Assembly (NCBI GenBank): GCA_016793325.1
Contig: JAEUKI010000055.1
Span: 186,001-250,000, forward strand
Length of the DNA: 64,000 bases
Origin: Myxococcales bacterium
GTDB taxonomy: Bacteria; Myxococcota_A; Polyangia; Polyangiales; Ga0077539
Reading direction: 5' to 3'
The notes under the pieces were generated by a model that was given only the letters and a program-made list of their open reading frames with translations, ran no database searches and was not told the DNA's origin. Below are positions 4,363 to 36,963 of this stretch, one piece after another. The position numbers and the translations under genes are program-made. How positions within the stretch are numbered: position 1 is the stretch's first letter; every line of letters begins with the position of its first letter.

Positions 4363-5931
4363 TCACCCGCGCACGAGCACCCAGACGGACGCTGCATCTC
4401 CGTCGAGGAACATCGCGACGTCGACGTTGCGCGCTCCGTGCTCGAAGGGAAATCGAAACCGCAGCGTCGCGTCGAGCGCCCGTCGCGTCACGCCGTCCAA
4501 GAACCGCCCGTAGAAGCGCTTCACGCTCGTGCACGGGGCGACGTCGCGGAAGAAGTTCTTTCCGAGGACGTCGCTGACTTCACGCCTCGCGAGGCGCGAC
4601 TCGTACGCGTTGTACGCGAGCACGGTCCCGCGCGTGTCGAGCTTGACCACGCCGAACGGCAGCTCTTCGATCGAGTCCGCCGTGAGCTGTCCCTCGCGGA
4701 GCGAGAAGCTCGTGAGCGCGCGGCTCGGGCGTCGACCGTCGAGGCTCCGCACGAACGCGAGCTGCTCGTCGCTCTCGATGTACCGCTCGAAGAGCGAACG
4801 AAGCAGCGTGACGGCGTCCTCGCTGTGGTGCCCGCGTGCGACGAGGTAGATCGCGAGCGCGGTCCCTGTGCGGCCCTGGCCGCCGCGGCAGTGAACGGCG
4901 ATCACCTCGCCGCGATCGACGCGCTTGCAGAGCTCGTCTGCGAGCGCGACGGTCGTCGCGTGATCGGGCGCCTTCATGTCCGTGATCGCGAAGTGGAGCT
5001 GCTCGAACCCCGCCCGCGCGATCGCGTCACGGTCGTGCGCGGTCTCTTCGAGGGTCACGATCGTGGTGATCCCTCGACGCCGGAGGGAGGCGAGGTCTTC
5101 GTCGAGCGATCGCACGAGCCCCGGCCGTGACATCCCTCCGATTTGCCCCGGAACGAGCCACTGAAATCCGTTGGACTCTCGCTCGCGCGCGCCCTCGAGG
5201 CGGCTCTCGGCGACGGGCGCTGACGCGTCGAGCCGGAGCGTGCTCACCGCGAGCGCGTCGCGGGGCGCGTGAGGCTCGCTCGCGACGAGCACGAGCTGCG
5301 TCTCGGCCACGCGACGAACGAGCGCGATCGCGGCCGCGGTTTCGAGCGCGTCTGCGCCCACGAAGTACGCGGCGAGCGTGATGATCGGCGCGTCGGACGC
5401 GTACGCTCCGGCGACCGCCACGGCCCATCGCTGCATCGCGCTAAGCGACGACAGCTCTGCGTCGATCGAGATGTCGTCGAGGCCGAGGCTCCGGAGGATT
5501 GCACGGCCCCATCGCTCGGCGCGCTCGTTGTTGAACGACTCGTGCCGCGCCATCTCGACGAACATCGCGTGCGGCATCGAGCGAAGCAGCGCGGAGAGCA
5601 CCGACGCTCCGCCGTCAGCCTCGGGCGAGAGCGCGTCGCCCGACCGATCACCGCTGCCTTCGATCTGCGCCGCGGCCGGAGTGAGTCGCCAGTCGACGCC
5701 GTCGATCATCAAGCCGCCGCACCAATGCACAGACGGTCCGCTCGTGCGCGCGAGCAGGCGAAACAAGGTGGTCGTCGCCGCGCGGTCGCCGACGACCGCG
5801 ACCACCCCAGATGACGGCGCGTCGAAGTCGATCGGGCCCGCGAGCCTCTCGCTGTCCGTCCCGAGTTCGAAGCGGCGAAGGGACAGTCGAGGTGCGGCGT
5901 TGCTCGGGCTCACCCTTCGGTACGATGCCAA
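4363..5931 (-). CDS. Fusion: degenerate ABC-ATPase-like domain, dual-specificity phosphatase, photoactive yellow protein domain
   Basis: The 522-residue product has three parts. Residues about 15-235 look like an ABC ATPase: the Walker A region (GDRAATTT, 48-55) lacks the Lys, and a signature-like LSSLSAMQR lies at 160-168, so it is probably catalytically dead. Residues about 255-400 are a Cys-dependent phosphatase with P-loop HCRGGQGRT (nucleophile C348, R354, likely general acid D318). Residues about 413-522 align without gaps over the chromophore region of Halorhodospira PYP: Y440, E444, R450 and C467 match Tyr42, Glu46, Arg52 and Cys69, with FFRDVAPCT around the Cys; Thr50 is Ala448. The inference is a light- or ligand-regulated phosphatase. 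The longest frame begins at TTG 5931; GTG at 5913 is an alternative start. No p-coumarate enzyme is visible nearby. Confidence 0.85.
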   Translation of the reverse strand: MASYRRVSPSNAAPRLSLRRFELGTDSERLAGPIDFDAPSSGVVAVVGDRAATTTLFRLLARTSGPSVHWCGGLMIDGVDWRLTPAAAQIEGSGDRSGDALSPEADGGASVLSALLRSMPHAMFVEMARHESFNNERAERWGRAILRSLGLDDISIDAELSSLSAMQRWAVAVAGAYASDAPIITLAAYFVGADALETAAAIALVRRVAETQLVLVASEPHAPRDALAVSTLRLDASAPVAESRLEGARERESNGFQWLVPGQIGGMSRPGLVRSLDEDLASLRRRGITTIVTLEETAHDRDAIARAGFEQLHFAITDMKAPDHATTVALADELCKRVDRGEVIAVHCRGGQGRTGTALAIYLVARGHHSEDAVTLLRSLFERYIESDEQLAFVRSLDGRRPSRALTSFSLREGQLTADSIEELPFGVVKLDTRGTVLAYNAYESRLARREVSDVLGKNFFRDVAPCTSVKRFYGRFLDGVTRRALDATLRFRFPFEHGARNVDVAMFLDGDAASVWVLVRG

Positions 5932-7423: not shown

Positions 7424-8611
7424 TCATCGCTCGCTCGAGGCGCGATCGGGCAGCGCGCCGTCCAAGCGCCGTCCGATCCACCGGAGCATCGCTCGGATGA
7501 ACGGCGCCGGAGGCAGGGGCGCGATGAGCGCGAGCACCTCGCGGAGCGACGCGCGCTCGTCGAGAAATCGCAGCGCGCGATCGGGGCTTCGGCTGAACAT
7601 CGCCTCGAAGATCGCCGGCACCCGCGCGGGCTCTCGCTGCCAGAGCTCGAGCATCACCGCGTCGAGCGCGCGATAGAACGACGAGTCGTCCTGGCGCTCG
7701 AACGGGTGACCGAAGACCGAGAGCGAGCGGACGATCGCCGCGTTGTCCTCGAGGATCCGCGTGAGCGCGTAGCCTGTGGACGCCTTGAGTCGACCGGCGG
7801 GGATCCCGATCGCGCGAACGTGCTCGGACACGCGTAGGTCGAACGGCTGTTCGGTCATCGGGCTCACGCCCGCTTCGCGCGCGACGATCTCGTACCAATC
7901 GAGCCCGAGGACCGACGCGAGGTACTTCTCGAAGACGGGCTCGGGGTCGACCGGGTCGAGCGTCACGAGCTCGACGAGGGCTTCGCGCGGCGAGAACGGA
8001 AGGACGTAGAAGAACGCCGTTCCTGCGGGGAGGCCGGTGCGAAAGTCCATGAGCGTCGCGCGCTCGGGCTCGAAGTGATCTCGCTCGGCGCGCACGACCC
8101 AACCGCGAAATCGCTGCTCGAGCGCGTGCCACTTTGTCGTGTCGACCGAGAGCTCTCCGCGCTTGAAGCGGCTGTCGAAGACCCAACGGGCGCGATAGAT
8201 CGCCCCGTTGACGTGGATCTCGCAGTGATCGCCGCGCTCTTCGACGCGCTCTGCGCGGCCCTCGATCACGAGGTGCGCCGAGCGCTCGGCGAGTCGACGC
8301 TTGGCCTCGCGCTGAAGGTCCGCGAAAAAGAGCGTTTGATACTGCTCGGACGCGAGCTCGATGCGCGCGGGGCCGTCGTTCGACTGCAGCACGAGCGAGC
8401 TCCATCGGTGACGAACGAGCGCGTCGAGCGCGGTCGGCCGCGGGCTCCAGAAGGACAAGGTCCGCAGCGCGTCGTCGTCGTGCGCTCCGTCGACGAGCAA
8501 AATCGATCGATCGGACAGCGCGCTGTCCATCATCTGCAACGCTAGCGCGAGGCCCGAAACTCCTGCGCCAACGATGCAGTAATCGAACAGCGACGAGGGA
8601 CGATCGTTCAT
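7424..8611 (-). CDS. crtY: Lycopene cyclase (CrtY-type flavoprotein)
   Basis: The 395-residue product carries the N-terminal dinucleotide-binding motif GAGVSGLALAL of FAD-dependent lycopene cyclases, the family motif RTLSFW near residue 60 (compare R-T-x-x-F-W), and a family-typical C-terminal half. In this family the enzyme cyclises the ends of lycopene to beta rings at the membrane without net redox change. The start is placed at ATG 8611, which begins just before the nucleotide-binding strand; a longer frame to 8647 would add 12 poor residues. It diverges from the aldo/keto reductase gene with only 52 bp between the two starts. No other carotenoid gene is in the window, although polyprenyl and mevalonate genes occur at 30-33 kb. 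Confidence 0.85.
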   Translation of the reverse strand: MNDRPSSLFDYCIVGAGVSGLALALQMMDSALSDRSILLVDGAHDDDALRTLSFWSPRPTALDALVRHRWSSLVLQSNDGPARIELASEQYQTLFFADLQREAKRRLAERSAHLVIEGRAERVEERGDHCEIHVNGAIYRARWVFDSRFKRGELSVDTTKWHALEQRFRGWVVRAERDHFEPERATLMDFRTGLPAGTAFFYVLPFSPREALVELVTLDPVDPEPVFEKYLASVLGLDWYEIVAREAGVSPMTEQPFDLRVSEHVRAIGIPAGRLKASTGYALTRILEDNAAIVRSLSVFGHPFERQDDSSFYRALDAVMLELWQREPARVPAIFEAMFSRSPDRALRFLDERASLREVLALIAPLPPAPFIRAMLRWIGRRLDGALPDRASSER

Positions 8612-8663
8612 GGCTCTGCGTGGGTCGTCGAGCGTACGCTCGCGCACGAAAGGATCATCTGCG

Positions 8664-20484: not shown

Positions 20485-20590
20485 CGCACAGCGTCGCTCG
20501 CCGAAATGACGCCATAGACCGCCGCAGTATCGATAGATTTCGACCAACCAAAGCGCAGCGCGTGCTGCACGAACGGGAGACAACCACTCG

Positions 20591-21496
20591 ATGACAGACC
20601 CAGCAAAATTCATCGGTGAGCGAGCGGCGCGGCAGCTCTCGAACACCACGAAGACCCCGCCGCAGTGGCGCGGCGCGACGCCGCGGTGGCTCGTGCAACT
20701 GCTGCCATGGGTCCCGACCGAGGCCGGTGTGTACCGCGTCAATCAAGCGCTCGACGAGAAGTTCGCCGTGCGCTGCACGCCCGACCCCAACGACGTTCTG
20801 CCCGTGGGCTTCTCGGACTACGAAGCGCAGCCGCGCGAATACGTGCTGAGCTCGGTCACGACGACGGTGGCGGTGCACACCCGCGTCTCGGACCTCTATC
20901 GAAGCCCGATGGACCAGGTGAAGGAGCAGCTCACGCTCGCGGTCGACAAGCTCAAAGAGAAGCAAGAAGACGAGCTCATCAACAACAAGAACTACGGGCT
21001 CGTTCACAACGCGGACCCCGAGCAGCGCATCAAGCCGCGCAAGGGACCGCCGACGCCGGACGACCTCGACGAGCTGATCTCGCTCGTGTGGAAGGAGCCG
21101 TCGTTCTTCTTGGCGCACCCGAAGGCGATCGCGGCGTTCGGGCGCGAGTGCACGCGTCGCGGTGTTCCACCGCCCACGATGACGCTGTTCGGCGCGCCGT
21201 TTCTCACGTGGCGCGGGCTGCCCTTGATTCCGTGTGACAAGCTTCGCGTGCAGGACAACAAGAGCGACATCTTGTTGTTGCGCACCGGCGAGCGAAAGCG
21301 CGGCGTGGTCGGGCTGTTTCAGCCGGGCCTTCCGGGCGAGGTGAGCCCGAGCCTCTCGGTCCGAATGATGGGGATCAACGCCCAGGGGGCCGCGCAGTAC
21401 CTGCTCGCGCTCTACTGCTCGACCGCCGTGCTCGTGCACGACGCGCTCGGCGTCCTCGAAGGCGTCACGATCAACCACTACCATGAGTACCCCTGA
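20591..21496 (+). CDS. Family 2A encapsulin shell protein
   Basis: The 301-residue product matches the HK97-fold shell proteins of family 2 encapsulins (SrpI-like). It has an N-terminal arm with AARQLSNTTKTPPQ, then LPWVPTEAGVYRVNQ, E-loop and P-domain segments, and a C-terminal QYLLALYCSTAVLVHDALGVLEGV. There is no cyclic-nucleotide-binding insertion, which places it in subgroup 2A, not 2B. Subgroup 2A shells are known to enclose a cysteine desulfurase with a long disordered N-terminus, and exactly that gene follows with a 14-bp overlap. The likely product is a protein nanocompartment for sulfur handling in the cytoplasm. The GGGAGA site precedes ATG 20591. Confidence 0.9.
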   Translation: MTDPAKFIGERAARQLSNTTKTPPQWRGATPRWLVQLLPWVPTEAGVYRVNQALDEKFAVRCTPDPNDVLPVGFSDYEAQPREYVLSSVTTTVAVHTRVSDLYRSPMDQVKEQLTLAVDKLKEKQEDELINNKNYGLVHNADPEQRIKPRKGPPTPDDLDELISLVWKEPSFFLAHPKAIAAFGRECTRRGVPPPTMTLFGAPFLTWRGLPLIPCDKLRVQDNKSDILLLRTGERKRGVVGLFQPGLPGEVSPSLSVRMMGINAQGAAQYLLALYCSTAVLVHDALGVLEGVTINHYHEYP

Positions 21497-23309
21497 GCGC
21501 CCGCTGCCCGGCGAGCTCTCGCTCGTCTCGGTGGGCCCCGCGTCTGCGACGCAGGGGGCCTCTCCGCCCGCAGCGTCACCGGGCGTTGGAATGGCTGCGA
21601 CGCGCGTCCCGTCCGGGCCCACGGTCCCCGACGCGGATCACGCGAACCTCACGCTCGCGGTCAGTCGGTACGTCAACGAGCTGTTCGGCGCTCCTGCGGT
21701 GACACCTCCGGCATCGCCGTCGTCGTCACCCACCGCGAGCGACGCTTCGGGCGCGAGCCCAGCGCCATCGTTGCCCGATCGACCAGAGAGCGTCGACGCT
21801 CCGTCGCAGATGCCCACCACGGCGCCGACTTCTCTACCCGCAACGCCGACGCGACCCGAGCGCTACGAGGGCGAAAACCCGTTCTTCACAGCGCCGCGGT
21901 TCGACGCCGTGGCGCTCGAGTCGCCGGTCGAGTTCAGGGTCGATCTGCTCGATCACGGGCAGAGACCACCGCACGCGCCGAGCCCGCCGAGCGCTCCGAG
22001 CGCGCCCGCCGAGCCGAGCCCGCGGTCGCCCGCGATCGCACACGAAATCAACCCGATCACGGACGTCACCGTCCCTTCGACGGGCGGACCGATCGACGGT
22101 CACGTGTTGAAGCGCGAGTTTCCGATCCTGTCCGAGCGCGTCCACGGAAAGCAGCTCGTCTGGCTCGACAACGCGGCCACCACGCAGAAGCCTCGCACGG
22201 TCATCGAGCGCCTGCAGACCTACTACGAGCGAGAGAACTCGAACATCCATCGCGCTGCGCACGCGCTCGCCGCGCGCGCGACGGACGCGTACGAAGCCGC
22301 TCGCGAGAGCGTGCGCCGCTTCGTCAACGCCACGAGCGTCCGAGACGTCGTCTTCGTTCGAGGGACGACCGAGGGCATCAACCTCGTCGCGCAGAGCTGG
22401 GGCCGACGCAACGTCTCCGCCGGGGACGAGATCGTCCTGACGCACCTCGAGCACCACGCGAACATCGTCCCGTGGCAGATGTTGTGCGCCGAGACGGGGG
22501 CGAAGCTCCGCGTCGCGCCCGTCGACGATCGCGGCGACATCGTGCTCGACGCGTACGAGCGGCTCCTCAACGATCGGACGAAGATCGTCGCGCTCCCGCA
22601 GGTGTCCAACGCGCTCGGGACCGTGACGCCAGCGCGCGAGATGATCGCGATGGCCCACCGTCACGGCGCGAAGGTGCTGCTCGACGGAGCGCAGTCCGTC
22701 TCGCACATGCGGCAAGACGTGCAGCAGCTCGGGTGCGACTTCTTTGTGTTCTCGGGGCACAAGGTCTTCGCGCCCACGGGGATCGGCGCGGTCATCGCGC
22801 GCGCAGACCTCCTCGACGAGATGCCGCCGTGGCAGGGCGGCGGAAACATGATCGCCGACGTCACCTTCGAGAAGACCGTGTTCCAGCCGGCGCCTGCGCG
22901 CTTCGAGGCAGGCACTGGCAACATCGCGGACGCGGTGGGGCTCGGCGCGGCGCTCGACTGGCTCACGCGACTCGGAATCGAGAACGTCGAGCGCTACGAG
23001 CACTCGCTGCTCGAGTACGGAACGCAACGATTGCTCGAGGTCCCAGGGCTTCGCATCATCGGCTGCGCCCGAGAGAAGGCCGGCGTCCTCTCGTTCGTCA
23101 TCGACGGTCACTCGACGCACGACCTGTCGACGTACCTCGACAAGCAGGGCATCGCCGTGCGCGGCGGACACCACTGCGCGCAGCCGATCCTTCGGCGCTT
23201 CGGGCTCGAGAGCACCGTCCGCGCGTCGCTCGCGCCGTACAACACGCGCGAGGACCTCGACGCGCTCGTCGAGGCGCTCTTGCGACGAACGGGAGGCGGC
23301 GGATGGTGA
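21483..23309 (+). CDS. Encapsulated cysteine desulfurase (SufS-like) with disordered cargo-loading N-terminus
   Basis: The 608-residue product splits at about residue 205. The N-terminal 200 residues are Pro/Ser/Ala-rich and predicted disordered, with short conserved-looking islands LTLAVSRYVNELFG (56-69) and RYEGENPFFTAPRFD (127-141) that are candidates for shell binding. The rest is a group II cysteine desulfurase: PLP Lys K427 in FSGHK, and catalytic Cys C565 in RGGHHCAQP. It removes sulfur from cysteine to give alanine and an enzyme persulfide. It overlaps the shell gene by 14 bp and the rhodanese gene by 7 bp, so the three are translationally coupled. Confidence 0.92.
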   Translation: MSTPERPLPGELSLVSVGPASATQGASPPAASPGVGMAATRVPSGPTVPDADHANLTLAVSRYVNELFGAPAVTPPASPSSSPTASDASGASPAPSLPDRPESVDAPSQMPTTAPTSLPATPTRPERYEGENPFFTAPRFDAVALESPVEFRVDLLDHGQRPPHAPSPPSAPSAPAEPSPRSPAIAHEINPITDVTVPSTGGPIDGHVLKREFPILSERVHGKQLVWLDNAATTQKPRTVIERLQTYYERENSNIHRAAHALAARATDAYEAARESVRRFVNATSVRDVVFVRGTTEGINLVAQSWGRRNVSAGDEIVLTHLEHHANIVPWQMLCAETGAKLRVAPVDDRGDIVLDAYERLLNDRTKIVALPQVSNALGTVTPAREMIAMAHRHGAKVLLDGAQSVSHMRQDVQQLGCDFFVFSGHKVFAPTGIGAVIARADLLDEMPPWQGGGNMIADVTFEKTVFQPAPARFEAGTGNIADAVGLGAALDWLTRLGIENVERYEHSLLEYGTQRLLEVPGLRIIGCAREKAGVLSFVIDGHSTHDLSTYLDKQGIAVRGGHHCAQPILRRFGLESTVRASLAPYNTREDLDALVEALLRRTGGGGW

Positions 23310-24259
23310 CGACCATCACGCCGCACGAGCTTCAGCTGCTCGCGGCAGAGGAGCCCCTCGACATCATCGACGTGCGAGAGCCTTCGGAGTGGGCGACGGG
23401 CCACGTCCCGGGGGCGAGGCTCGTGCCGCTCGCGCAGCTCCGCGCGGACCCGGTCGGAGCGCTCCCGCGCGATCGGGTTGTTTTTGTGTGCGCAAAGGGC
23501 GGACGCAGCGCGCAGGCCGCGGCGCTCGCCGAGCAGCACGGAAAGCGATCGGTCTACAACCTGGCCGGCGGCACGGATGGGTGGCGCGTGGCGGGGCTCG
23601 CGGTGGTGGTTCCGTCGACGAGCGCGCCTGCGGGGGAGTCGAAGGCGCCGCCCGTGGTGGGGCCGGACGCGACCGAGCTCGTCGAGCCGTCGCTCGATGG
23701 TATCGTCGCTCACAACCTGCGGCTCGCTCGAGCCGCACGAGGCTTGTCGCTCGATGAGCTCTCGCGTGAAGCTGGCGTGTCGCGAACGCTCCTCGGGCAG
23801 ATCGAGCTCGGTCGCACGCCAGCGAGCATCGGCGTCGTGTGGAAGATCGCGCAGGCGATGGGCGTTCCGTTCTCGGCGCTGCTCTCGACGATGCCGGTCA
23901 ACGGATCGACCGTGTCGACGCGCGAGGGAGCGAAGCGGCTCTTGTCTGCGGACGGTCGGTTCTCGTCGCGCGCGCTCTTCGCGCTCGGCGACCCGACGGC
24001 GGCCGAGTTCTACGAGCTGCGACTGGCGCCCCACAGCCGCGAAGACGCCGAAGCCCACCGCCCCGGAACGCGCGAAAACCTCGTCGTCTCCGCGGGCCGG
24101 CTCGAGCTCAAGGTCGGCGCCGAGTCGTTTCTCCTCGGGACCGGCGACGCGATCAATTTCGCCGCCGATCGACCCCACAGCTACATCAACGCCTCGCACG
24201 AAGAGTGCTGGATGTATCTCGTGATGAACTACTCGGACGAAGTGCGCCGCCTTCGCTGA
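23303..24259 (+). CDS. Rhodanese - HTH (XRE) - cupin fusion protein
   Basis: The 318-residue product has three domains. Residues 1-105 are a rhodanese domain with active-site loop CAKGGRS (C63), able in principle to accept a persulfide. Residues about 130-195 are an XRE-type helix-turn-helix (NLRLARAARGLSLDELSREAGVS). Residues about 215-318 are a cupin barrel. HTH-cupin proteins are usually small-molecule-responsive repressors; joining a rhodanese suggests a regulator that senses persulfide or sulfur flux from the encapsulated desulfurase. It overlaps the desulfurase gene by 7 bp. Confidence 0.85.
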   Translation: MVTTITPHELQLLAAEEPLDIIDVREPSEWATGHVPGARLVPLAQLRADPVGALPRDRVVFVCAKGGRSAQAAALAEQHGKRSVYNLAGGTDGWRVAGLAVVVPSTSAPAGESKAPPVVGPDATELVEPSLDGIVAHNLRLARAARGLSLDELSREAGVSRTLLGQIELGRTPASIGVVWKIAQAMGVPFSALLSTMPVNGSTVSTREGAKRLLSADGRFSSRALFALGDPTAAEFYELRLAPHSREDAEAHRPGTRENLVVSAGRLELKVGAESFLLGTGDAINFAADRPHSYINASHEECWMYLVMNYSDEVRRLR

Positions 24260-24299
24260 ACCGCAGAGCGCGTCGTCGCCAAATCCGAGCTCTCGTCCG

Positions 24300-26990
24300 A
24301 TGGCGTACGATCACCGGACGAGGAGCGACGTTTTCTTGCCGCAGACATCACCGCTCGAATCCGAGCGAACGGTCGAGGGCTTCGCGCGCGGCGCGCTGCT
24401 CGACGATCGGTTCGAGCTCGAGTCCGTCGTGGGGAGCGGCGCAGCGGGCGTCGTGTTTCGCGCTGTCGATCGACGCGATGGACAGCAGTGCGCCGTCAAA
24501 GTGCTGCGAAGCCCGCAGGTCGAAGACGTCGAGCGCTTCCAACGCGAAGTCCAAGCGCTCACGAGGTTGTCTCACGACGCGATCGTCCGACTGATCTCGC
24601 GAGGAACGACCGCCGAAGGACAGCCGTACCTCGCGATGCAGTGGCTCGATGGCGAATCGCTCGCCGAGCGCCTGGCCCGAGGGCCGCTGTCCGAGGCCGA
24701 GACGCTCTCGCTCGCGCAGCGCCTCGCCGCCGCGCTCGCCGCCTCGCACGCCGCGGGCGTGTTGCATCGCGACGTCAAGCCCGCGAACGTGATGCTCGTC
24801 GGAGGCGCCACCGATCGCGCGACGCTCGTTGATTTCGGGCTCGTTCGACTGCGGCAAGATCCCGTGCGGACGCGCGCGGGCGTTCCGCTCGGGACGCCGG
24901 CGTACATGGCCCCCGAGCAAGTGCGCGGCGAGTCGGACATCGACGCGCGGGCAGACGTCTTCGGGCTCGGCGCGACGCTCTACGAGTGCCTCACGGGAGA
25001 GCGCGCGTTCATGGGCGCGGGCATCGTCGACGTGTTGACCGCGGTCATGCTCGATGAACCTGCGTCCCTCCGCGAGCGCGCGCCCGCGGTGTCGCCCGCG
25101 TTCGCGAGGCTGATCGAGCGAATGCTCTCGAAGGATCGCGAGGCTCGCCCCGAGAGCGGCAGCGCCGTCGCGACAGCGCTCGACGAGCTCACCCGCGCGG
25201 CGGTGCTCGCGACGCGCGCGGCGAGCGCGAGCGAGACACACGTATTCGAGCACGCTCGCGCCGCTTCGGTGCGCGGCGATCGAAAGCTCGTCTGGGCGCT
25301 CTTCGCGGACACTGATCGATGGGATCGATACTGCCGAGCGCCGCGGACGGACTACCACGCGCGCGACGACGACCGCGCAGACGGCGGCGTGCTGCGCGTC
25401 GGCGTCGCGGAGATCGCAGCGCACCCGTCGCGGTGGATCGAGGTGGGCGAGGGGATCGAGGGGTCGCGGCTGCGCGCGGCGCGTCGGTTCTTGGACGGGC
25501 GATTCGCAGAGATCGCGTTCGACGTGGACGTCGAGCGAGACCCGGAGGCTCCGTCGCGATCGAGGGTTCGTTGCGTCGTTCGCGTGGTCGACGACGGGCG
25601 CGCGCCCGAGGGCGGCGCGGCGATGATGCTGGCGTTTCTCGCGGACCGCCTCGAGCGATACGTCGACGCGCTCGCCGCGCTGCTCGAAGGCGCACCGGAG
25701 GCTGTGCTCTCGGGACACGGCAACGAGAGCGGCTCGTCGCATGCGCGGCGCGTGTTGCTCGCGCTCGCGTGGGACGACGTCGCGCTCGCCGGGCGCGCGA
25801 CGGGCGTCGACGCAGACGGGATGGCCGTGCGGCTCGCGCGGTGGAGCGATCCGATCGACGGCGTGGGCGCTTCGCTGCAATCGAAGCTCGCGCAGTTCGC
25901 CGAGCGCGGGGCCGACGACCTCGTCCGACGCATTCGTCCCGCCGAGCTCGCCCACGCGTGGAACGTCGATCGCGCCGAGATGCTCCGCGCGTTGCTCGCG
26001 GGCGCGACGCTCGGGCTCTTCGAGCTTCGGTGGGAGCTTCGTTGCCGCAACTGCCGTACGTCCGCGGCGACCGCGCCGTCGCTCGACGCGATCACGCCGT
26101 CCGTTCACTGCGCGGAGTGCGCGATCGACACGACCGTAGACCTCTCGAGCAACGTCGAAGCGGTGTTCTCGGTCGCTGCCGCCGCGCGCAAGGTGAGCCC
26201 GAAGTTCTACTGCGGAGCCTCTGCGACGCATCGCCCGCACGTCGCAGCGTTTGTCTCGGTCGACGCTGGCGCAGCGAGCGAGATCGCGATCGCGTTGCCC
26301 GAGGGCGCGTGCGTGTTTCGCGTGCCGAGGCGCGCCAAGAGCGCGCGGCTCGCGTACGCCGAACGCCCAGCGATCGTGCGGCTTCGCGAGCGATCGAACG
26401 AGCTCGAGTGCGTCGCCGAGGGCGCTGCGTCCGAGGACGGAGCCACGCGCGTGCTCTTCGAAAACGCCGACGATCGCCCGGTGGAGTTGCAGGTCGAGTA
26501 CCCCGCGGACGGCGCCGAGACGACGGCCGTCTCTGTGCTCGCGCTTCCGGAGTTCGCGCGGTGGTTCGCTGGCGATGCGCCGGTGCGCGGGGCGGAGCTC
26601 TCGCTCAGCCGCTGCGCGGTGTTGCACATCGAGTGCGCTGCGCAGGACGAGCTGTTCGCGCGGCACGGCGACGCTGGAGCGTGCGCGCGGCTCGAAGCGG
26701 CGCTGCGCGCGATCGAACGAGCGCTCGAAGCGAGCGGCGTGGGGGCGGTCTTTCGACGTTCGATCGGCGCGGTGGGCGCGATGTACCTCGACGGCGCGAG
26801 CGCGAAGGCCGCCTTCGATCGCGCGCACATCGAGGCGCTGCGCGAGGGCGTCGAGATCGCTGGAGCGGTCTTCGAGGGCGCGTGCGTCGCGGTTCGCCGC
26901 GACGAGCGGCTCGAGATCTACGGCGCTGGCGCCCACCGCGCGGTGACGACCGCGCGACGCTCTGCGCCGGGTGCGTGCGCGATCGTGTGA
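24300..26990 (+). CDS. Ser/Thr kinase fused to SRPBCC, DUF5939 and degenerate adenylate cyclase domains
   Basis: The 896-residue product starts with a complete Hanks kinase (about 38-305): Gly loop GSGAAG, K67, HRDVKPAN (D158), DFG 178-180, APE 204-206. Then comes an SRPBCC-like region (about 315-460), a DUF5939-like segment with two zinc-ribbon-like pairs (CRNC and CAEC, about 585-610), and a C-terminal region from about 745 that resembles a class III nucleotide cyclase (GAVFRRSIGAVGAMYLDG corresponds to the usual GD-containing motif) but lacks the metal-binding Asp residues. SRPBCC-DUF5939-cyclase is a known adenylate cyclase layout; here a kinase is added and the cyclase looks inactive. 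No membrane segment is evident. Confidence 0.8.
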   Translation: MAYDHRTRSDVFLPQTSPLESERTVEGFARGALLDDRFELESVVGSGAAGVVFRAVDRRDGQQCAVKVLRSPQVEDVERFQREVQALTRLSHDAIVRLISRGTTAEGQPYLAMQWLDGESLAERLARGPLSEAETLSLAQRLAAALAASHAAGVLHRDVKPANVMLVGGATDRATLVDFGLVRLRQDPVRTRAGVPLGTPAYMAPEQVRGESDIDARADVFGLGATLYECLTGERAFMGAGIVDVLTAVMLDEPASLRERAPAVSPAFARLIERMLSKDREARPESGSAVATALDELTRAAVLATRAASASETHVFEHARAASVRGDRKLVWALFADTDRWDRYCRAPRTDYHARDDDRADGGVLRVGVAEIAAHPSRWIEVGEGIEGSRLRAARRFLDGRFAEIAFDVDVERDPEAPSRSRVRCVVRVVDDGRAPEGGAAMMLAFLADRLERYVDALAALLEGAPEAVLSGHGNESGSSHARRVLLALAWDDVALAGRATGVDADGMAVRLARWSDPIDGVGASLQSKLAQFAERGADDLVRRIRPAELAHAWNVDRAEMLRALLAGATLGLFELRWELRCRNCRTSAATAPSLDAITPSVHCAECAIDTTVDLSSNVEAVFSVAAAARKVSPKFYCGASATHRPHVAAFVSVDAGAASEIAIALPEGACVFRVPRRAKSARLAYAERPAIVRLRERSNELECVAEGAASEDGATRVLFENADDRPVELQVEYPADGAETTAVSVLALPEFARWFAGDAPVRGAELSLSRCAVLHIECAAQDELFARHGDAGACARLEAALRAIERALEASGVGAVFRRSIGAVGAMYLDGASAKAAFDRAHIEALREGVEIAGAVFEGACVAVRRDERLEIYGAGAHRAVTTARRSAPGACAIV

Positions 26991-30087: not shown

Positions 30088-30159
30088 TCGCCGAAGCCAC
30101 ACACATTGATTCAACATGCACTACGGGACGATTCGAGACACGCACAGGGAGGCACGAAC

Positions 30160-31233
30160 ATGACCACGGTCGATGCTCCGCACACGCGGGCCGAAGAGGG
30201 CGCTGAGACGATGGCGCGCTTGCAATCCATCGCCGCCGACCACGGCGCCAGCGCGCTCGCAGAGAAGCTGCACGCGCTCCGGTCCTTCATCGACGACGAC
30301 TTGAAGCAGGTCGAGTCGGACCTCGAGGGAATCGACCACGGCGAGACGCCGCTGCATCGCTCGGCGCACCACCTGCTCGCCGTCGGAGGCAAGCGCCTTC
30401 GACCGATGTGCGTCGCGCTCGCGGCGCGCGTGGGCACGGGCTTCAACAGCGCGGCGCGCGCGATGGCTGTGGCGGTCGAGGTCGTTCACAACGCCACGCT
30501 CCTTCACGATGACGTCGTCGACCTCGGCGACGTTCGAAGGGGAATCCCCGCGGCGCGGATGGTGTACGGCAACGCGGCGAGCATCTTCGCGGGCGACTGG
30601 CTCCTCGTCGAGGCGCTGCGGCGCATTCAAGTGGCCGGCAAGGGCGAGCTGCTCGAGCGCATGCTCGTCACGCTCCGAGAGATGCTCGACGCCGAGAGCC
30701 TTCAGCTCGCGAACCGCGGGTCGATGCGCGGCTCGGTGGGCGACTACTTTCGCGTCGTCGAGGGAAAGACCGCGTCGCTCTTCGGCTGGGGACTCTATGC
30801 CGGAGCGCGCGCCGCGGACGTGTCCGTCCCGCACGCCGAGGCGCTCGAGCGCTTCGGTCGCAAAGTCGGCGTGTGCTTCCAGCTCGTCGACGACGTCCTC
30901 GACGTGGGCGGCGACGCTGCGCACGTGGGCAAATCCGTCTTCTCGGACCTCCGCGAGGGCAAGGCCACGTATCCGTTGTTGCTCGCGGTCGAAAAAGACC
31001 CAGACCTCGCCGCGATGATCGAGCGAGGCGTCGTCGACAGCGTGACGCTCGACCCCGAGCTCGAGCGCCGCGCCGCGAGGGCGATCCGCGAGGGCGCCGT
31101 GCTCGAACAATGCCGAGCGCTCGCGCAGAAGCTCACGGACGAGGGCCTCGCCGAGCTCGACAAGCTCCCACCGAGCCGCGCGCGCGACTCCCTCGCGGGC
31201 GTCGCGATCACCCTCCTGCACCGCACGAAGTGA
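30160..31233 (+). CDS. Trans-polyprenyl diphosphate synthase
   Basis: The 357-residue product has both Asp-rich motifs of E-prenyl synthases: LLHDDVVD (D117, D118, D121) and QLVDDVLD (D244, D245, D248), plus GGKRLRP near 77-82. It elongates an allylic diphosphate with isopentenyl diphosphate. Being first in a menaquinone operon, it probably makes the quinone side chain (hepta- to nonaprenyl); chain length cannot be read reliably. The start ATG 30160 has a GGGAGG site at 8 bases. The N-terminal 35 residues extend beyond the usual family start. Confidence 0.9.
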   Translation: MTTVDAPHTRAEEGAETMARLQSIAADHGASALAEKLHALRSFIDDDLKQVESDLEGIDHGETPLHRSAHHLLAVGGKRLRPMCVALAARVGTGFNSAARAMAVAVEVVHNATLLHDDVVDLGDVRRGIPAARMVYGNAASIFAGDWLLVEALRRIQVAGKGELLERMLVTLREMLDAESLQLANRGSMRGSVGDYFRVVEGKTASLFGWGLYAGARAADVSVPHAEALERFGRKVGVCFQLVDDVLDVGGDAAHVGKSVFSDLREGKATYPLLLAVEKDPDLAAMIERGVVDSVTLDPELERRAARAIREGAVLEQCRALAQKLTDEGLAELDKLPPSRARDSLAGVAITLLHRTK

Positions 31234-31247
31234 ATCGAGGCACAGCC

Positions 31248-32207
31248 ATGTGGATGGTTCTCATTGATTCGAGCGCCGATGCGGATGCGGTCAAGCGTGA
31301 GCTGATCGCGCGCGGCCAGTGGGTGCGCCCCACGGATCGAGGGTTCGTGCTCGAGCCCCACTCGTCGAGGGTCAGCGCGGACGAGCTCGCGAAGATTCCA
31401 GGCGTCGTGCAAGTGGTCTCGCCCAAGTCGTCGCACCCCAAGATCGACGCCCAGGGCCCGGTCGTCGACGTCGCCGGCGTCAAAGTCGGCGTGGGAAACA
31501 AGCCCGTGCTCATGTCCGGCCCCTGCGCGGTCGAGAGCGAAGAGCGGATTCAACAGATCGCCAAGAAGCTCGCGCCGCGCGGCGCGCTCTTTCTTCGCGG
31601 CGGCGCCTTCAAGCCTCGCACGAGCCCGTACGCGTTTCAGGGCCACGGCGAGGTCGCGCTCCAATGGATGCGCCGCGCCGCGGATCACAACGGCATGCGC
31701 GTGGTGACCGAAGCGATGGCCGAGAGCGAGGTTCCCCTCGTGGCCGAGTACGCAGATCTCCTGCAAATTGGCTCGCGAAACATGGCCAACTACGCCCTGC
31801 TCAAGGCCGCGGGCAAGGCGCGAAAGCCGGTGCTCCTCAAGCGATCGATGTCCGCGACGGTGAGCGAGTGGCTCCAGGCCGGCGAGTACCTGCTCGTCCA
31901 CGGAGCGTCCGGCGTGATCTTCTGCGAGCGCGGGATCCGCGGCTTCGACGAGAGCACGCGCAACCTCCTCGACCTCGGGGCGGTCGCGCTGCTCTCGCAC
32001 GTTCACCGCCTCCCGGTGGTCGTCGACCCCTCGCATGGAACCGGTCGGCGCGATCTCGTCCTCCCGCTCGCGCGCGCTGCGCTAAGCGCAGGAGCGGCAG
32101 GCGTCATGATCGAGACTCACGATGACCCAGGTCGCGCGCTCAGCGACGGACCGCAGGCGCTTCGTCCCGAAGAGCTCGACGCGCTCGCCTCAGAGGTGTT
32201 GCGATGA
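31248..32207 (+). CDS. aroF: 3-deoxy-7-phosphoheptulonate (DAHP) synthase, type I beta
   Basis: The 319-residue product joins an N-terminal ferredoxin-like regulatory domain (1-65) to the AroF/KdsA-type barrel with MSGPCAVESEE, RGGAFKPRTSPYAFQG, LLKRSMSAT and DPSHGTGRRD. It condenses phosphoenolpyruvate and erythrose 4-phosphate as the first step to chorismate. The N-terminal domain in this subtype confers feedback control by aromatic amino acids. In this operon it would supply chorismate for menaquinone. Its stop overlaps the next ATG. Confidence 0.93.
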   Translation: MWMVLIDSSADADAVKRELIARGQWVRPTDRGFVLEPHSSRVSADELAKIPGVVQVVSPKSSHPKIDAQGPVVDVAGVKVGVGNKPVLMSGPCAVESEERIQQIAKKLAPRGALFLRGGAFKPRTSPYAFQGHGEVALQWMRRAADHNGMRVVTEAMAESEVPLVAEYADLLQIGSRNMANYALLKAAGKARKPVLLKRSMSATVSEWLQAGEYLLVHGASGVIFCERGIRGFDESTRNLLDLGAVALLSHVHRLPVVVDPSHGTGRRDLVLPLARAALSAGAAGVMIETHDDPGRALSDGPQALRPEELDALASEVLR

Positions 32208-33493
32208 CGAATTCGACGGGACCCAAGGGTCCGACGAGGCGCGTGAACGCGCGGATTCCCGGGCTCTTCAAGCACTCGGTCGAAGAGCGCGCGCGCATCG
32301 TCGCAGAGAGCGCCGACGTGTCCGACCGCGCTCGCGCGTTCTTCGCGCGCGGCGGCGGGATCGACGTCACGAGCGCCGATGCGATGAGCGAGAACGTCGT
32401 GGCGACGTTCGGACTTCCCTTCTCGGTCGCGACAAACTTCGCGATCAATCAACGCGACTACCTCGTTCCGATGGCGGTCGAAGAGCCGAGCGTCGTCGCC
32501 GCGGCCTCCAACGCCGCGCGCATGGTCCGCGAATCGGGCGGGTTCTTCGCCGACGCCGACGCCTCGATCATGACCGCGCAAGTGCAGCTCGACGACGTCC
32601 CGGACGCCGCGAGCGTCGTGGCGAAGCTCGAGGGCGCGCGCGACGCGCTCTTCGACGCGGGCGATCGCTCGATCCCCAAGATGGTCGAGCGCGGCTTCGG
32701 CTGCCGCGACCTCGCGGTGCGCGTCCTCTCGGTCGAGCACGGCGTGGTCGTTGTCGACCTGTTCGTCGACGTGGGCGACGCGATGGGCGCCAACTGCGTC
32801 GACACGGTGGCCGAGGCGGTCGCGCCGGTCGTTCAGTCCCTCATCGGCGGGCGAATCGGCCTGCGAATCCTCTCGAACTTGCCGCTTCGCCGCCGCGTTC
32901 GCGCGTTTTGTCGCGTCGACGCGAGCGCCATTGGCGGCGCTGAAATCGCCGACGGAATCGCGCGGGCCTCGCGCTTCGCCGAGCTCGATATGTTTCGCGC
33001 GGTCACGCACAACAAGGGCTTCATGAACGGCGTCGACGCCGCCGCGGTGGCCCTCGGTCAAGACTGGCGATCGATCGAAGCCGGAGCGCACGCGTTTTGC
33101 GCGCTCGACGGCGGCTACAAACCGCTCTCCACGTGGAAGCGCACCGAGCAAGGGCTCGAAGGCCGCTGCGATCTTCCGCTCGCCGTCGGGTCCGTCGGCG
33201 GGAGCACTTCTGCCAACGACGCGATTCGCACGGCGTTCGAGCTCGTTCGCGTCGAGAGCGCCCGAGAGCTCGCGGGCGTCCTCGCGTGCGTCGGGCTCGC
33301 CTCCAACCTCGCGGCCCTCCGCGCGCTCGCGTCCGAGGGAATCCAAAAGGGTCACATGAAGCTCCACCATCGCAAGACCGAGGCGGCCGACCAACGCCGC
33401 CGCGAAGAAGTTCGCTCCGAGCCCCCGCGCTCCGAGCCCCCCGCGGCCGAAGAAGCGACCGCCGTCGCCTCCGCACGGACGGTGACGCGATGA
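32204..33493 (+). CDS. mvaA: Hydroxymethylglutaryl-CoA reductase, class II
   Basis: The 429-residue product has the class II signature ENVVATFGLPFSVATNF...DYLVPMAVEEPSVVAAAS with catalytic Glu at 93-94, DAMGAN at 192-197, K271 in NKGFMNG, Asp D287, and the C-terminal His H384 in KGHMKLH. It makes mevalonate from HMG-CoA, feeding isopentenyl diphosphate to the prenyl synthase two genes upstream. The tail after 390 is a charged, Ala/Pro-rich extension. ATGA overlaps on both sides show tight coupling with aroF and menG. Confidence 0.93.
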   Translation: MTNSTGPKGPTRRVNARIPGLFKHSVEERARIVAESADVSDRARAFFARGGGIDVTSADAMSENVVATFGLPFSVATNFAINQRDYLVPMAVEEPSVVAAASNAARMVRESGGFFADADASIMTAQVQLDDVPDAASVVAKLEGARDALFDAGDRSIPKMVERGFGCRDLAVRVLSVEHGVVVVDLFVDVGDAMGANCVDTVAEAVAPVVQSLIGGRIGLRILSNLPLRRRVRAFCRVDASAIGGAEIADGIARASRFAELDMFRAVTHNKGFMNGVDAAAVALGQDWRSIEAGAHAFCALDGGYKPLSTWKRTEQGLEGRCDLPLAVGSVGGSTSANDAIRTAFELVRVESARELAGVLACVGLASNLAALRALASEGIQKGHMKLHHRKTEAADQRRREEVRSEPPRSEPPAAEEATAVASARTVTR

Positions 33494-34221
33494 GCGACGC
33501 AAGCAACGTGCGCATGGGCTCGGGCGCGATGTTCGACCGCATCGCGTCTCGCTACGACGCGCTCAACCGCGTGATCTCGCTCGGGATCGACCAGCGCTGG
33601 CGGCGACGCACGGTCGAGTCGCTGCAACTGACCGCGGGTCACCGTGTATTGGACCTAGCGACGGGCACCGGCGACCTCGCCGTGATGATCGCCAAGACGC
33701 ACCCCGGCGTGACCGTCGTCGGCTCGGATCCCAGCGAGGGAATGCTCTCGGTCGGGCGCGACAAAGTGCGCGATCGATCGCTCGACGGCCGCGTCGTGAT
33801 GGAGGTCGGCGACGCGCAGTCGCTTCCGTACGAAGACGCGAGCTTCGACGCGTTGACCATGGCCTTCGGCATTCGAAACGTCCCCGATCGCGCGAGGGCC
33901 CTTCGCGAGATGGCGCGCGTGGTCAAGCCGGGGGGCCGCGTCGCGATCCTCGAGCTCAGCGAGCCGCGCGGCGGGCTCATCGCGCCGCTCGCGCGCTTCC
34001 ACGTGCACACCGTGGTGCCCGTGCTCGGCGCGCTGCTCTCGGGCGAAAAAGAGTACCGATATCTTCAAGAGTCGATCGCGAAGTTCCCTCCGCCCGAGAC
34101 GTTCGCTTCGCTGATGCGAGAGTGCGGGCACGACGTCCTCTCGATCGAACCCATGACCTTCGGTACCGTGTGCCTGTTCGTCTCGACGCCGAGCGCGAAG
34201 GCCCGCCCGACCGGCGCGTGA
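33490..34221 (+). CDS. menG: Demethylmenaquinone methyltransferase (MenG/UbiE)
   Basis: The 243-residue product has the UbiE/MenG hallmarks: FDRIASRYDALNRVISLGIDQRWRR at the start, the SAM-binding DLATGTGDLA, the FDALTMAFGIRNVPDR motif and KPGGRVAILELSEP. It methylates the ring in the last step of menaquinone synthesis. ATGA overlap with mvaA fixes the start. Given the menaquinone genes around it, the menaquinone role is preferred over the ubiquinone one. Confidence 0.93.
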   Translation: MSDASNVRMGSGAMFDRIASRYDALNRVISLGIDQRWRRRTVESLQLTAGHRVLDLATGTGDLAVMIAKTHPGVTVVGSDPSEGMLSVGRDKVRDRSLDGRVVMEVGDAQSLPYEDASFDALTMAFGIRNVPDRARALREMARVVKPGGRVAILELSEPRGGLIAPLARFHVHTVVPVLGALLSGEKEYRYLQESIAKFPPPETFASLMRECGHDVLSIEPMTFGTVCLFVSTPSAKARPTGA

Positions 34222-34229
34222 GCCGCTCC

Positions 34230-34255
34230 GATGACCGCTGGTCATCCTGATTTTT
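34230..34255 (+). terminator. Hairpin plus T-run between menG and menD
   Basis: GATGACC-GCT-GGTCATC (34230-34246) can form a 7-bp stem, followed after four bases by TTTTT (34251-34255). On the coding strand this resembles a weak intrinsic terminator or attenuator, or an operator, in the only sizeable gap of the upper operon. The T-run leads straight into the menD leader. Confidence 0.4.
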
Positions 34256-34274
34256 GACGGAGATTTATCTCATC

Positions 34275-36038
34275 ATGGGTGGAGCCAACCTGCACATCGC
34301 CTGGTCGACGCTCTTCGCGCGCGCGCTCGCTCGCGCGGGCGTTCGACGCGTGGTGGTCTCGCCCGGCTCGCGCTCGACGCCGCTCGTGATCGGGCTCGCG
34401 TCCGAGCCGTCGATCGAGCTCTCGTCGGTGATCGACGAGCGAAGCGCCGCGTTCTTCGCGCTGGGGATCGCCAAGCTCACCGGCGAGCCCGTCGCCCTTC
34501 TCTGCACCTCGGGAACAGCCGCTGGCCACTATCTCCCCGCGGTCATGGAGGCCTCGCTCGCGCGCGCTCCGCTCGTCGTGATCACCGCGGATCGCCCCTG
34601 GGACGCGTACGACTGCGCCGCGCCGCAGACCGTCGATCAAGTGAAGCTCTACGGCGCGTACGTGAGGCACTACGCCGAGCTCGGGCTGCCCGACGCGGAC
34701 GCGTTCGCCGCGGTCTCGCGCGTCGCCGTGCAGAGCGTCGCCCGCGCGCTCGGCCCCGACCCGGGACCCGTTCACATCAACGCGCGCTTTCGAAAGCCGC
34801 TCGAGCCACAGCCGCCGGGCCCACCCGCGCCGTGGGAGCCCTCGTTCGCGCGCGCGATGGACCAGATCACGACGCTCGCCCCGCGCGAGCGCGCCCCGGT
34901 CAGCGCCGCCTCGATTCGATCGAGCGGGATCGCTTCGCGCGAGCGCGTCGTGATCGCCTGCGGCCCCTCGCTCGGAGCGACGTCCCCCGATGCGCGACGG
35001 CGCTTTCTCGAAGCGTGCGACAGCCTCGGCGTGTGCGTGCTCGCCGAGGCGACGAGCGGTCTTCGCTTCGCGGGCGCGCGCGTGCTCCGCGCGATCGAGC
35101 CCATCGTCTCGAGCGCCATGTGGCAGACGCACGGGCCCACGACGGTCGTCGAGGTCGGCGCGCCCATGGTGTCCGCTGCGTACGCGCGGTGGGCGCTCGC
35201 CGCGAGCGCGCCGATCGAGCGCTTCGTGTTCACGCGCCACGGCTACAACGACGCGTCCAACAACGCCGCGCTCGCGATCGACGAAGACCCGTACGCGTGG
35301 GTCGAGGCGTGGGCCGAGTACGAGCGATCGAACCCTTCGCCCGCGGCGCGCGCCGAACGTTCGCGCTTCGCGTCGCGATGGGCCTCCGCGGATCTACGCG
35401 CGTGCTCGGTGATCGAGCGCTCGCTCGCCGCGCCCGAGCTCACCGAGGGAAGGACGATCGCGTCGGTGCGCGACGCGCTGCCGAGGGACGCGACGCTCTT
35501 TGTGGCCAACAGCTCCGCGGTTCGCGACGTGGACGTGTTCGCGCTCGAAGCCGAGCCTTCGGTCCGCGTCGTTCACCAGCGGGGCGCGAGCGGGATCGAC
35601 GGGCTCGTGGCGGGCGCCATCGGAGCGCGAACGGTGAGCAAAACACCGGTCGTCTTGATTCTTGGTGACGTCGCGATGTGGCACGACGTCGGCTCGCTCC
35701 AGCTCGCGCGCGACCTCGACGAGCCGCTCGTGATCGTCGTGCTGCAAAACCGCGGCGGACGGATCTTCGATCGGCTCCCGCTCGCCAAGAATCAAGCGGT
35801 GCGCGCCGAGTACGAGCGCTATTTTCTCACGGACCGCGGGGGCTCGTTCGAGCCTGTCGTGCGCGGGTTTTCGCTCGCGTACGCCAAGGCGGACTCGCGC
35901 GCGTCGCTCGAGAGCGCGCTCTCGCGGGCGCTCTCGCATCGAGGCGCGACGGTGATCGAGAGCGAGTGCGTCCCTGGCAACGCCGAGCGCTTCGCGTCCG
36001 TCGTGCGCGCTGGGGTCGAGGCGATCGACGGTGTGTGA
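34275..36038 (+). CDS. menD: SEPHCHC synthase (MenD)
   Basis: The 587-residue product is a thiamine-diphosphate enzyme with VVSPGSRSTPL, the activating Glu in VIDERSAAFFALG, CTSGTAAGHYLPAVMEA, and the cofactor motif GDVAMWHDVGSLQLA...NRGGRIFDRLP. It joins isochorismate and 2-oxoglutarate-derived succinic semialdehyde. ATG 34275 is the first start after the T-run; an in-frame TTG at 34254 is possible. Its partners menH, menA and menC follow; its substrate supplier menF is at 50.4 kb. Confidence 0.93.
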   Translation: MGGANLHIAWSTLFARALARAGVRRVVVSPGSRSTPLVIGLASEPSIELSSVIDERSAAFFALGIAKLTGEPVALLCTSGTAAGHYLPAVMEASLARAPLVVITADRPWDAYDCAAPQTVDQVKLYGAYVRHYAELGLPDADAFAAVSRVAVQSVARALGPDPGPVHINARFRKPLEPQPPGPPAPWEPSFARAMDQITTLAPRERAPVSAASIRSSGIASRERVVIACGPSLGATSPDARRRFLEACDSLGVCVLAEATSGLRFAGARVLRAIEPIVSSAMWQTHGPTTVVEVGAPMVSAAYARWALAASAPIERFVFTRHGYNDASNNAALAIDEDPYAWVEAWAEYERSNPSPAARAERSRFASRWASADLRACSVIERSLAAPELTEGRTIASVRDALPRDATLFVANSSAVRDVDVFALEAEPSVRVVHQRGASGIDGLVAGAIGARTVSKTPVVLILGDVAMWHDVGSLQLARDLDEPLVIVVLQNRGGRIFDRLPLAKNQAVRAEYERYFLTDRGGSFEPVVRGFSLAYAKADSRASLESALSRALSHRGATVIESECVPGNAERFASVVRAGVEAIDGV

Positions 36039-36153
36039 ATGAGCCAGCGAGCGCGCCGATGGACTACCTGACGTTTCGCGAGCGACCCGAGCGCGACGGA
36101 GCGCTCGACAGCGGAGTCGCGGTTCGAAGGATGACAGGCAAGATCGAGAACTC

Positions 36154-36963
36154 ATGAGTTTACGAGCTGTAAGCGTTCGCGCCTGTCACGAACCCGAAGC
36201 GGAGCTGCTGTACGTGCTCCACGGGTTTCTCGGGGACGAGACCGCGCTCGACGGCGTGACGTCGCGGATCGCGTCGCGATTTGCGCGGGTCGAGCGGTGG
36301 GTCCTTCCGGGGCACAAACGAGAGCCGTGGAGCGCCTCGTGGACGTTCGACGCCGTCGTGGATCGGCTCATCGAGCGGTGCTCTGCGGTCGAGCCCGGGG
36401 TGATCGTCGGCTACTCGATGGGGGCTCGGATCGCGCTCGCGATGATCCTCCGGGCGCCCGAGCGGTTTTCGTGCGCGGCGCTCGTCGGGGTCGACCCAGG
36501 GATCGACGACGCTCCGACGCGCGAGGCGCGACTGCGTTGGGAGCGCGCGATGGCGGACGAGCTCTTGCGCGACGGGACCCAGGCGTTCGCCGCGCGATGG
36601 AGCGAGCTGGAGATCTTTGCGTCCCAACGATCGCTGCCAGGGCCCGTGCGCGAGGCGCTCTCGCTTCGAAGGAGCCAGCACGATCCCGAGGGAATCGCCT
36701 GGGCGATGCGCGCGCTCGGGACCGGCTCGATGCCCTCGCGCTGGGGCGCGCTCGCGGGGCTCGCGGTGCCCACCGTTGTTGTGACAGGCGAGCTCGACAA
36801 GAAATTCACGGCGATTTCGGCGACGATGGCCGAGCGATCACCGCGCGTCGCGCGCTGTGTGGTCGAGGGCGTCGGGCACGACGTCACGCTCGAAGCGCCC
36901 GAAGCCGTGGTAGACGCGCTGCAAACGTTGATCGCGAGGAGCTCGGTCGATGCAGAGAAGTGA
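36154..36963 (+). CDS. menH: SHCHC synthase-like alpha/beta hydrolase (MenH)
   Basis: The 269-residue product has an alpha/beta hydrolase fold with LHGFLGDE, nucleophile S88 in GYSMGAR, D215 in GELDKKF and H242 in GVGHD. MenH eliminates pyruvate from the MenD product. The 115-bp gap after menD holds only a possible 32-codon frame that ends in ATGA at the menH start. The gene overlaps menA by 14 bp. Confidence 0.88.
   Translation: MSLRAVSVRACHEPEAELLYVLHGFLGDETALDGVTSRIASRFARVERWVLPGHKREPWSASWTFDAVVDRLIERCSAVEPGVIVGYSMGARIALAMILRAPERFSCAALVGVDPGIDDAPTREARLRWERAMADELLRDGTQAFAARWSELEIFASQRSLPGPVREALSLRRSQHDPEGIAWAMRALGTGSMPSRWGALAGLAVPTVVVTGELDKKFTAISATMAERSPRVARCVVEGVGHDVTLEAPEAVVDALQTLIARSSVDAEK

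Follow-up and report, generated by a model that had tools for sequence, protein, structure and literature searches.

The stretch of DNA analysed here (the window) comprises 64,000 nucleotides from the genome of a Myxococcales bacterium (G000). At 4363–5931 (-) it contains an open reading frame of 522 residues whose product joins a degenerate ABC-ATPase, a dual-specificity phosphatase and a photoactive yellow protein (PYP) domain. The stop codon is at 4363–4365 and the start is uncertain, being either TTG at 5931 or GTG at 5913. The gene is backed by profile and PDB matches and by two orthologs (L040 and L083). A sequence-only reading had placed all three parts in this one frame, and independent profile matches found each of them there. 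As the two orthologs lie in other genomes, the fusion gene is not an artefact of frame or assembly.

Around the fusion, we found no conserved neighbour gene hinting at light signalling. A lycopene cyclase gene (7424–8647 (-), PF05834, E 1.8e-46) lies on the same strand about 1.5 kb upstream. This is suggestive of a light-related operon, but the surroundings are not conserved at the ortholog in G284, and we therefore did not use the cyclase as evidence. Elsewhere in the window, a type 2A encapsulin shell gene (SrpI-like, E 4e-100) adjoins a class-V aminotransferase at 20537–23306 (+); the aminotransferase family includes cysteine desulfurases, a known encapsulin cargo. A Ser/Thr protein kinase with a DUF5939 region (24228–26987 (+)) has no tie to the phosphatase, and isoprenoid/quinone genes at 30088–37876 (+) encode a polyprenyl synthetase, an HMG-CoA reductase, a MenD-like TPP enzyme and a UbiA prenyltransferase.

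The phosphatase domain (residues 254–396; 4744–5172 (-)) is of the PTP-SAK type. Its Pfam profile (PF22784) matched residues 254–389 with E 1.1e-22 and 81.1 bits, against a cut-off of 27, and in a PDB search the phosphatase part matched 25xa (E 2.2e-19) and DUSP23 (E 2.7e-10). The signature loop HCRGGQGRT, described as intact in the earlier reading, is indeed present at residues 347–355 (4867–4893 (-)) and includes Cys348 and Arg354. Both the HCX5R(S/T) loop and the general-acid Asp region are there, with H347, C348, R354, T355 and D318 conserved. Like the PTP-SAK and Tc-R-P dual-specificity phosphatases (PF22784 and PF22785) and DUSP23, the domain has a Cys-X5-Arg loop and a general-acid Asp region, and its profile match is near full length. 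It differs from them in being joined to a PYP domain and in the distinct GGQ form of its loop.

The PYP domain occupies residues 419–522 (4366–4677 (-)). The NCBIfam profile TIGR02373 (photo_yellow) matched residues 419–521 with E 1.2e-28. At 99.7 bits this match falls short of the profile's equivalog cut-off of 143.05 bits; we therefore count the protein as belonging to the PYP family and not, on this model, as an equivalog. Only one of the 62 matching Myxococcota genomes passed this cut-off and, according to the main text of a family survey, the share of PYP homologs that the profile recovers is only about 20% (PMC9664959). The same text describes family members as homologs with Cys69 and usually Tyr42 and Glu46, and the window protein has all three. 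When searched against the PDB with phmmer, the domain matched the PYP of Ppr (1mzu, E 1e-19) and Hhal PYP (E about 1e-18), with no gaps through the chromophore pocket. From this ungapped alignment, the pocket residues named in the sequence-only reading proved correct: Tyr440, Glu444, Ala448, Arg450 and Cys467 correspond to Tyr42, Glu46, Thr50, Arg52 and Cys69. The codon for Cys467, the equivalent of the p-coumarate-binding Cys69, is at 4531–4533 (-).

Of the nine pocket residues that have been published, eight are the same as in Hhal PYP, the sole change being Ile31 to Val. The window protein keeps Tyr42, Glu46, Cys69, Phe62, Val66, Ala67, Pro68, Phe96 and Arg52, with 36% identity and the same predicted fold. 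It differs from Hhal PYP in being the C-terminal domain of a 522-residue protein, in having Ala for Thr50 and His for Met100, and in that its chromophore is putative. Judging by known mutants of Met100, this His would make recovery slow. AlphaFold modelled the PYP part with a pLDDT of 77 as the PYP variant of the PAS fold, and the first 40 Foldseek matches to the model were all PYP or PYP-derived, with TM scores (query) of 0.68–0.80. Thus, both the profile search and the structure prediction, proposed earlier as checks, recovered PYP. The Thr50 to Ala change, which the earlier reading thought might shift the absorption, is no special feature: Ala is present in 28 of 53 relatives compared here and is the family consensus in the main text of a second survey (PMC12826048), so we rejected it as a spectral peculiarity. 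That text gives Ala50 with Leu52 as the consensus and absorption maxima of 435–465 nm for Ala50 members. Arg52 is retained in the fusions and in most of their sister PYPs, as shown by alignment.

The N-terminal part (residues 17–240; 5212–5883 (-)) gave ABC profile matches that, within the first 240 residues, were real but very weak, and it aligns to the PstB-like ABC-ATPases of relatives that combine ABC and phosphatase parts. Its Walker A (VVGDRAATTTL), its Walker B with the catalytic Glu and its signature motif are all degenerate; compared with relatives, the former Walker A at residues 48–55 (5767–5790 (-)) reads GDRAATTT, not GPxGxGKS. The protein should therefore not be called an active ABC-ATPase, and its descent from ABC-ATPases is shown by its relatives.

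These relatives, PstB-like ABC-ATPase/phosphatase proteins that lack PYP, are widespread in Polyangia, and one is encoded in the window's own genome (G000:C20). We found no published description of them. Their ABC part scored best against PstB, far below that model's cut-off. In these proteins (L041–L044, L061, L062, L084 and L118), the order of domains is the same as in the fusions, ABC then phosphatase. The phosphatase is homologous to that of the fusions, and the ABC part is homologous by weak but direct matches (L044, L083 and L118). Unlike the fusions, they keep Walker A and B, have no PYP and often have a small conserved partner gene adjacent. Walker A was retained in at least 22 of the 24 with a readable ABC part, and all 24 had an acidic pair at Walker B, Asp-Glu in 23 of them and Glu-Glu in one, whereas the catalytic Walker B Glu was lost in all three PYP fusions and Walker A in two of the three.

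The partner gene encodes a highly conserved protein of about 134 residues (VPECVAxGYVDMSTGMLLGVKTVDSHP...) and lies next after the ABC-ATPase/phosphatase gene in about half of the Polyangia loci (for example L118:8292-8696, L061:9813-10214 and L119:9845-10276; alignment A4). It had no PDB match, and its lone Pfam match was a weak one to MAPKK1_Int (5.8e-4). The two genes may form an undescribed two-gene system, possibly Roadblock/LC7-like.

In phylogenies, the phosphatase domains of the three fusions formed one clade (support 100/99), and their PYP domains together with five stand-alone PYPs formed an eight-member clade (support 95/85). These data fit a single event that joined PYP to an ABC-phosphatase, followed by decay of the ATPase. 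The decayed part probably now serves as a scaffold, and control by ATP may have been replaced by control by PYP.

Could the phosphatase be catalytically dead or able only to bind phosphorylated ligands, in a protein that as a whole acts as a scaffold and derives from an ABC-phosphatase? The ATPase is defunct already, and the phosphatase loop of the fusions, HC[RK]GGQGRT, departs from the HCxAGLGRT that is usual in the ABC-phosphatase relatives, the GGQ form being confined to the fusions among 27 proteins compared. However, the Cys, the Arg, the Thr after it and the Asp of the general-acid loop were invariant in all 27, and conservation of the domain across the three fusions is good. We consider a dead phosphatase very improbable.

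Searched with a whole-fusion profile, 318 genomes of the class yielded three full-length fusions and no more: that of the window, one in G284, which belongs to the same genus (49% identity), and one in G482, which belongs to another family (full length, E 2.1e-128). With three genomes and two families represented, a one-off fusion in a single strain is ruled out. The same search found no fusion in a further congener, G285, whose assembly is incomplete. The frame in G482 (L083/L111:176-2368) runs on stop-free beyond PYP into what looks by eye like an FxsA-like membrane protein; either a stop has been lost or this is another natural fusion.

PYP-like domains themselves are common in Myxococcota, where 62 of 284 genomes matched at E <= 0.001, about half of these strongly, and the phosphatase loop was absent from all other PYP frames retrieved from this sample. 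The window's genome has two further PYP-like domains (L031:9543-10736, G000:C78; L032:8024-9715, G000:C26), one N-terminal to what looks by eye like a V4R region and the other C-terminal in a coiled-coil-like protein. A scan by pattern across 84,980 species genomes, which reaches close relatives only, picked up only stand-alone PYPs, in Sorangium cellulosum and an acidobacterium, and viral contigs held no relatives of the fusion. Among the nearest PYP relatives, and in the same clade, is the PYP of S. cellulosum So ce26 (L058; 52% identity over the aligned region). Unlike the fusion, it is a stand-alone protein of about 130 residues with no phosphatase gene nearby.

Alignment of the three fusions showed which parts are conserved. 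Invariant positions made up 42% of the phosphatase, 49% of the PYP domain, 32% of the linker and 16% of the ABC part, which points to constraint on the phosphatase and PYP domains and to far weaker constraint on the ABC part. The phosphatase Cys, Arg, Thr and acid-loop Asp-Met were the same in all three, as were Tyr42, Glu46, Phe62, Val66, Ala67, Pro68, Cys69 and Phe96 of the PYP domain. The phosphatase and linker aligned without gaps, with two gap cells in a C-terminal loop of PYP. The linker (residues 397–418; 4678–4743 (-)) has equal length in all three and keeps RA(L/M)TSF, and the distance from the catalytic Cys to the chromophore Cys is exactly 119 residues in each.

What might this arrangement do? 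We propose that the C-terminal PYP domain controls the adjacent Cys-based dual-specificity-type phosphatase in response to blue light, as a one-protein switch, and give this about an even chance of being right. Direct coupling is suggested by the spacing, which is identical in three divergent orthologs, and by the linker, which aligns without gaps among them. From the architecture, then, we infer that the two domains are coupled; an AlphaFold model of both together had a pLDDT of 46 and was discarded as low-confidence. Alternatively, PYP could recruit or position the phosphatase, by dimerisation or by contact with a partner in one of the light states; the output would then depend on location while catalysis is unchanged. 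The sister PYPs of the fusion clade are stand-alone, as are most PYPs, which are thought to signal via partners according to the main text of PMC12826048. As the constant 119-residue spacing speaks instead for direct coupling, we judge recruitment to be improbable.

Blue-light control by the PYP domain would require a supply of p-coumarate. Of the genes named for this in the sequence-only reading, tyrosine ammonia-lyase was not found in the window's genome, in its congeners G284 and G285 or in G482, and a candidate was found for the ligase. The window's genome has a single aromatic lyase, which comparison with solved structures marks as a histidine ammonia-lyase (E 1.7e-128 to HAL versus 2.7e-82 to the Rhodobacter enzyme 2o6y), and G284, G285 and G482 have one lyase each, of the histidine type by score and, for G284 and G285, also by active-site motif. 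As the window's genome is 94% complete, a tyrosine ammonia-lyase may sit in a gap. The p-coumarate might otherwise be taken up from plant matter or come from a side activity of another lyase. Among ten CoA/AMP ligases checked, one (L139) was above the cut-off of the benzoate-CoA-ligase family (435 bits versus 375), making it a candidate aryl-CoA ligase for p-coumarate activation.

These results bear on a further possibility, that the PYP fold is intact but is not a light sensor here, and that another ligand, or redox or electrophile sensing via Cys467, controls the phosphatase. The missing lyase is in keeping with this, the organism is not known as a phototroph, and a shift to redox sensing has been proposed for some PYP homologs in the main text of PMC9664959. 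However, published redox-type cases have changed Tyr42 and Cys69, whereas the three orthologs all retain the Tyr, Glu and Cys along with the entire pocket, and redox control of the phosphatase has no specific support. Moreover, most PYP carriers tested also have no tyrosine ammonia-lyase: complete genomes with sister stand-alone PYPs, those of the Sorangium group included, likewise have just one lyase of the histidine type, and a second lyase was present in a few carriers (G178, G150 and G457). By the main text of the 2022 survey, tyrosine ammonia-lyase adjoins only about 10% of PYP genes, a lower bound (PMC9664959). Since complete sister-PYP genomes lack the enzyme too, its absence alone is no argument for a non-photoactive role and is weak evidence against photoactivity. 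We therefore regard a PYP domain that does not sense light as unlikely.

The PYP family has been surveyed twice, with 789 homologs (PMC9664959) and with 984, of which 153 were multidomain (PMC12826048). The partners of PYP described in the main texts are phytochrome, histidine kinase, GGDEF/EAL, V4R, REC and chemoreceptor domains (PMC9664959, PMC12826048); the sequence-only reading was right about phytochrome and GGDEF but too narrow in naming mostly these. That it knew of no described PYP–phosphatase fusion agrees with both main texts, where the word phosphatase does not occur. As in Ppr (PYP–phytochrome–histidine kinase), Ppd (PYP–phytochrome–GGDEF/EAL), MCP-PYP, PYP-V4R and REC-PYP, the window protein combines PYP with a signalling output, and as in MCP-PYP the PYP is C-terminal (main text of PMC12826048). 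It differs in that its output is a Cys-based phosphatase, which, as far as the main texts of the two surveys go, makes it a multidomain PYP with an output domain unreported before.

The proposed blue-light switch would work as follows. Cys467 would carry a p-coumaroyl thioester, its phenolate held by Tyr440 and Glu444, and would thereby allow the domain to absorb blue light. Light would isomerise the chromophore, Glu444 would lose its proton and the domain would partly unfold, as is known for PYP. The fixed-length linker could relay this change to the phosphatase, altering its activity or substrate access, and phosphate would be removed by the usual Cys348/Arg354/Asp chemistry, for which the motif is present, from a phosphoprotein or a small phospho-compound. 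The starting point would have been the ABC-ATPase/phosphatase fusion common in Polyangia, with the ATPase of the PYP-bearing branch losing its catalytic residues. Natural light-regulated phosphatases with LOV/PAS sensors do exist, in PP2C enzymes of the RsbP type, where a PAS-class sensor controls a phosphatase as proposed here. They differ in pairing a flavin LOV domain with a PP2C that is metal-dependent, and have no relation to Cys-based phosphatases or to PYP; we know of no Cys-based phosphatase that is controlled by light in nature.

Tentatively, and with somewhat less than an even chance, the fusion may represent a natural blue-light-switched Cys-based phosphatase derived from an older ABC-ATPase/phosphatase, with PYP now in the place of ATP as its input. 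Its output would be directly coupled and neither a kinase, a cyclase nor a chemoreceptor, and it could serve as a ready-made optogenetic phosphatase. Forty years after the discovery of PYP, the way in which it hands over its signal is still being sought. Here PYP is linked covalently, and at a constant distance, to an enzyme for which simple colour assays exist, so that this hand-over can be tested directly. If the proposal is true, it would link light to bacterial dephosphorylation and provide a single-chain optogenetic phosphatase. In addition, the ATPase has decayed in each of the three fusions, a neat example of an input module that seems to have been replaced by another.
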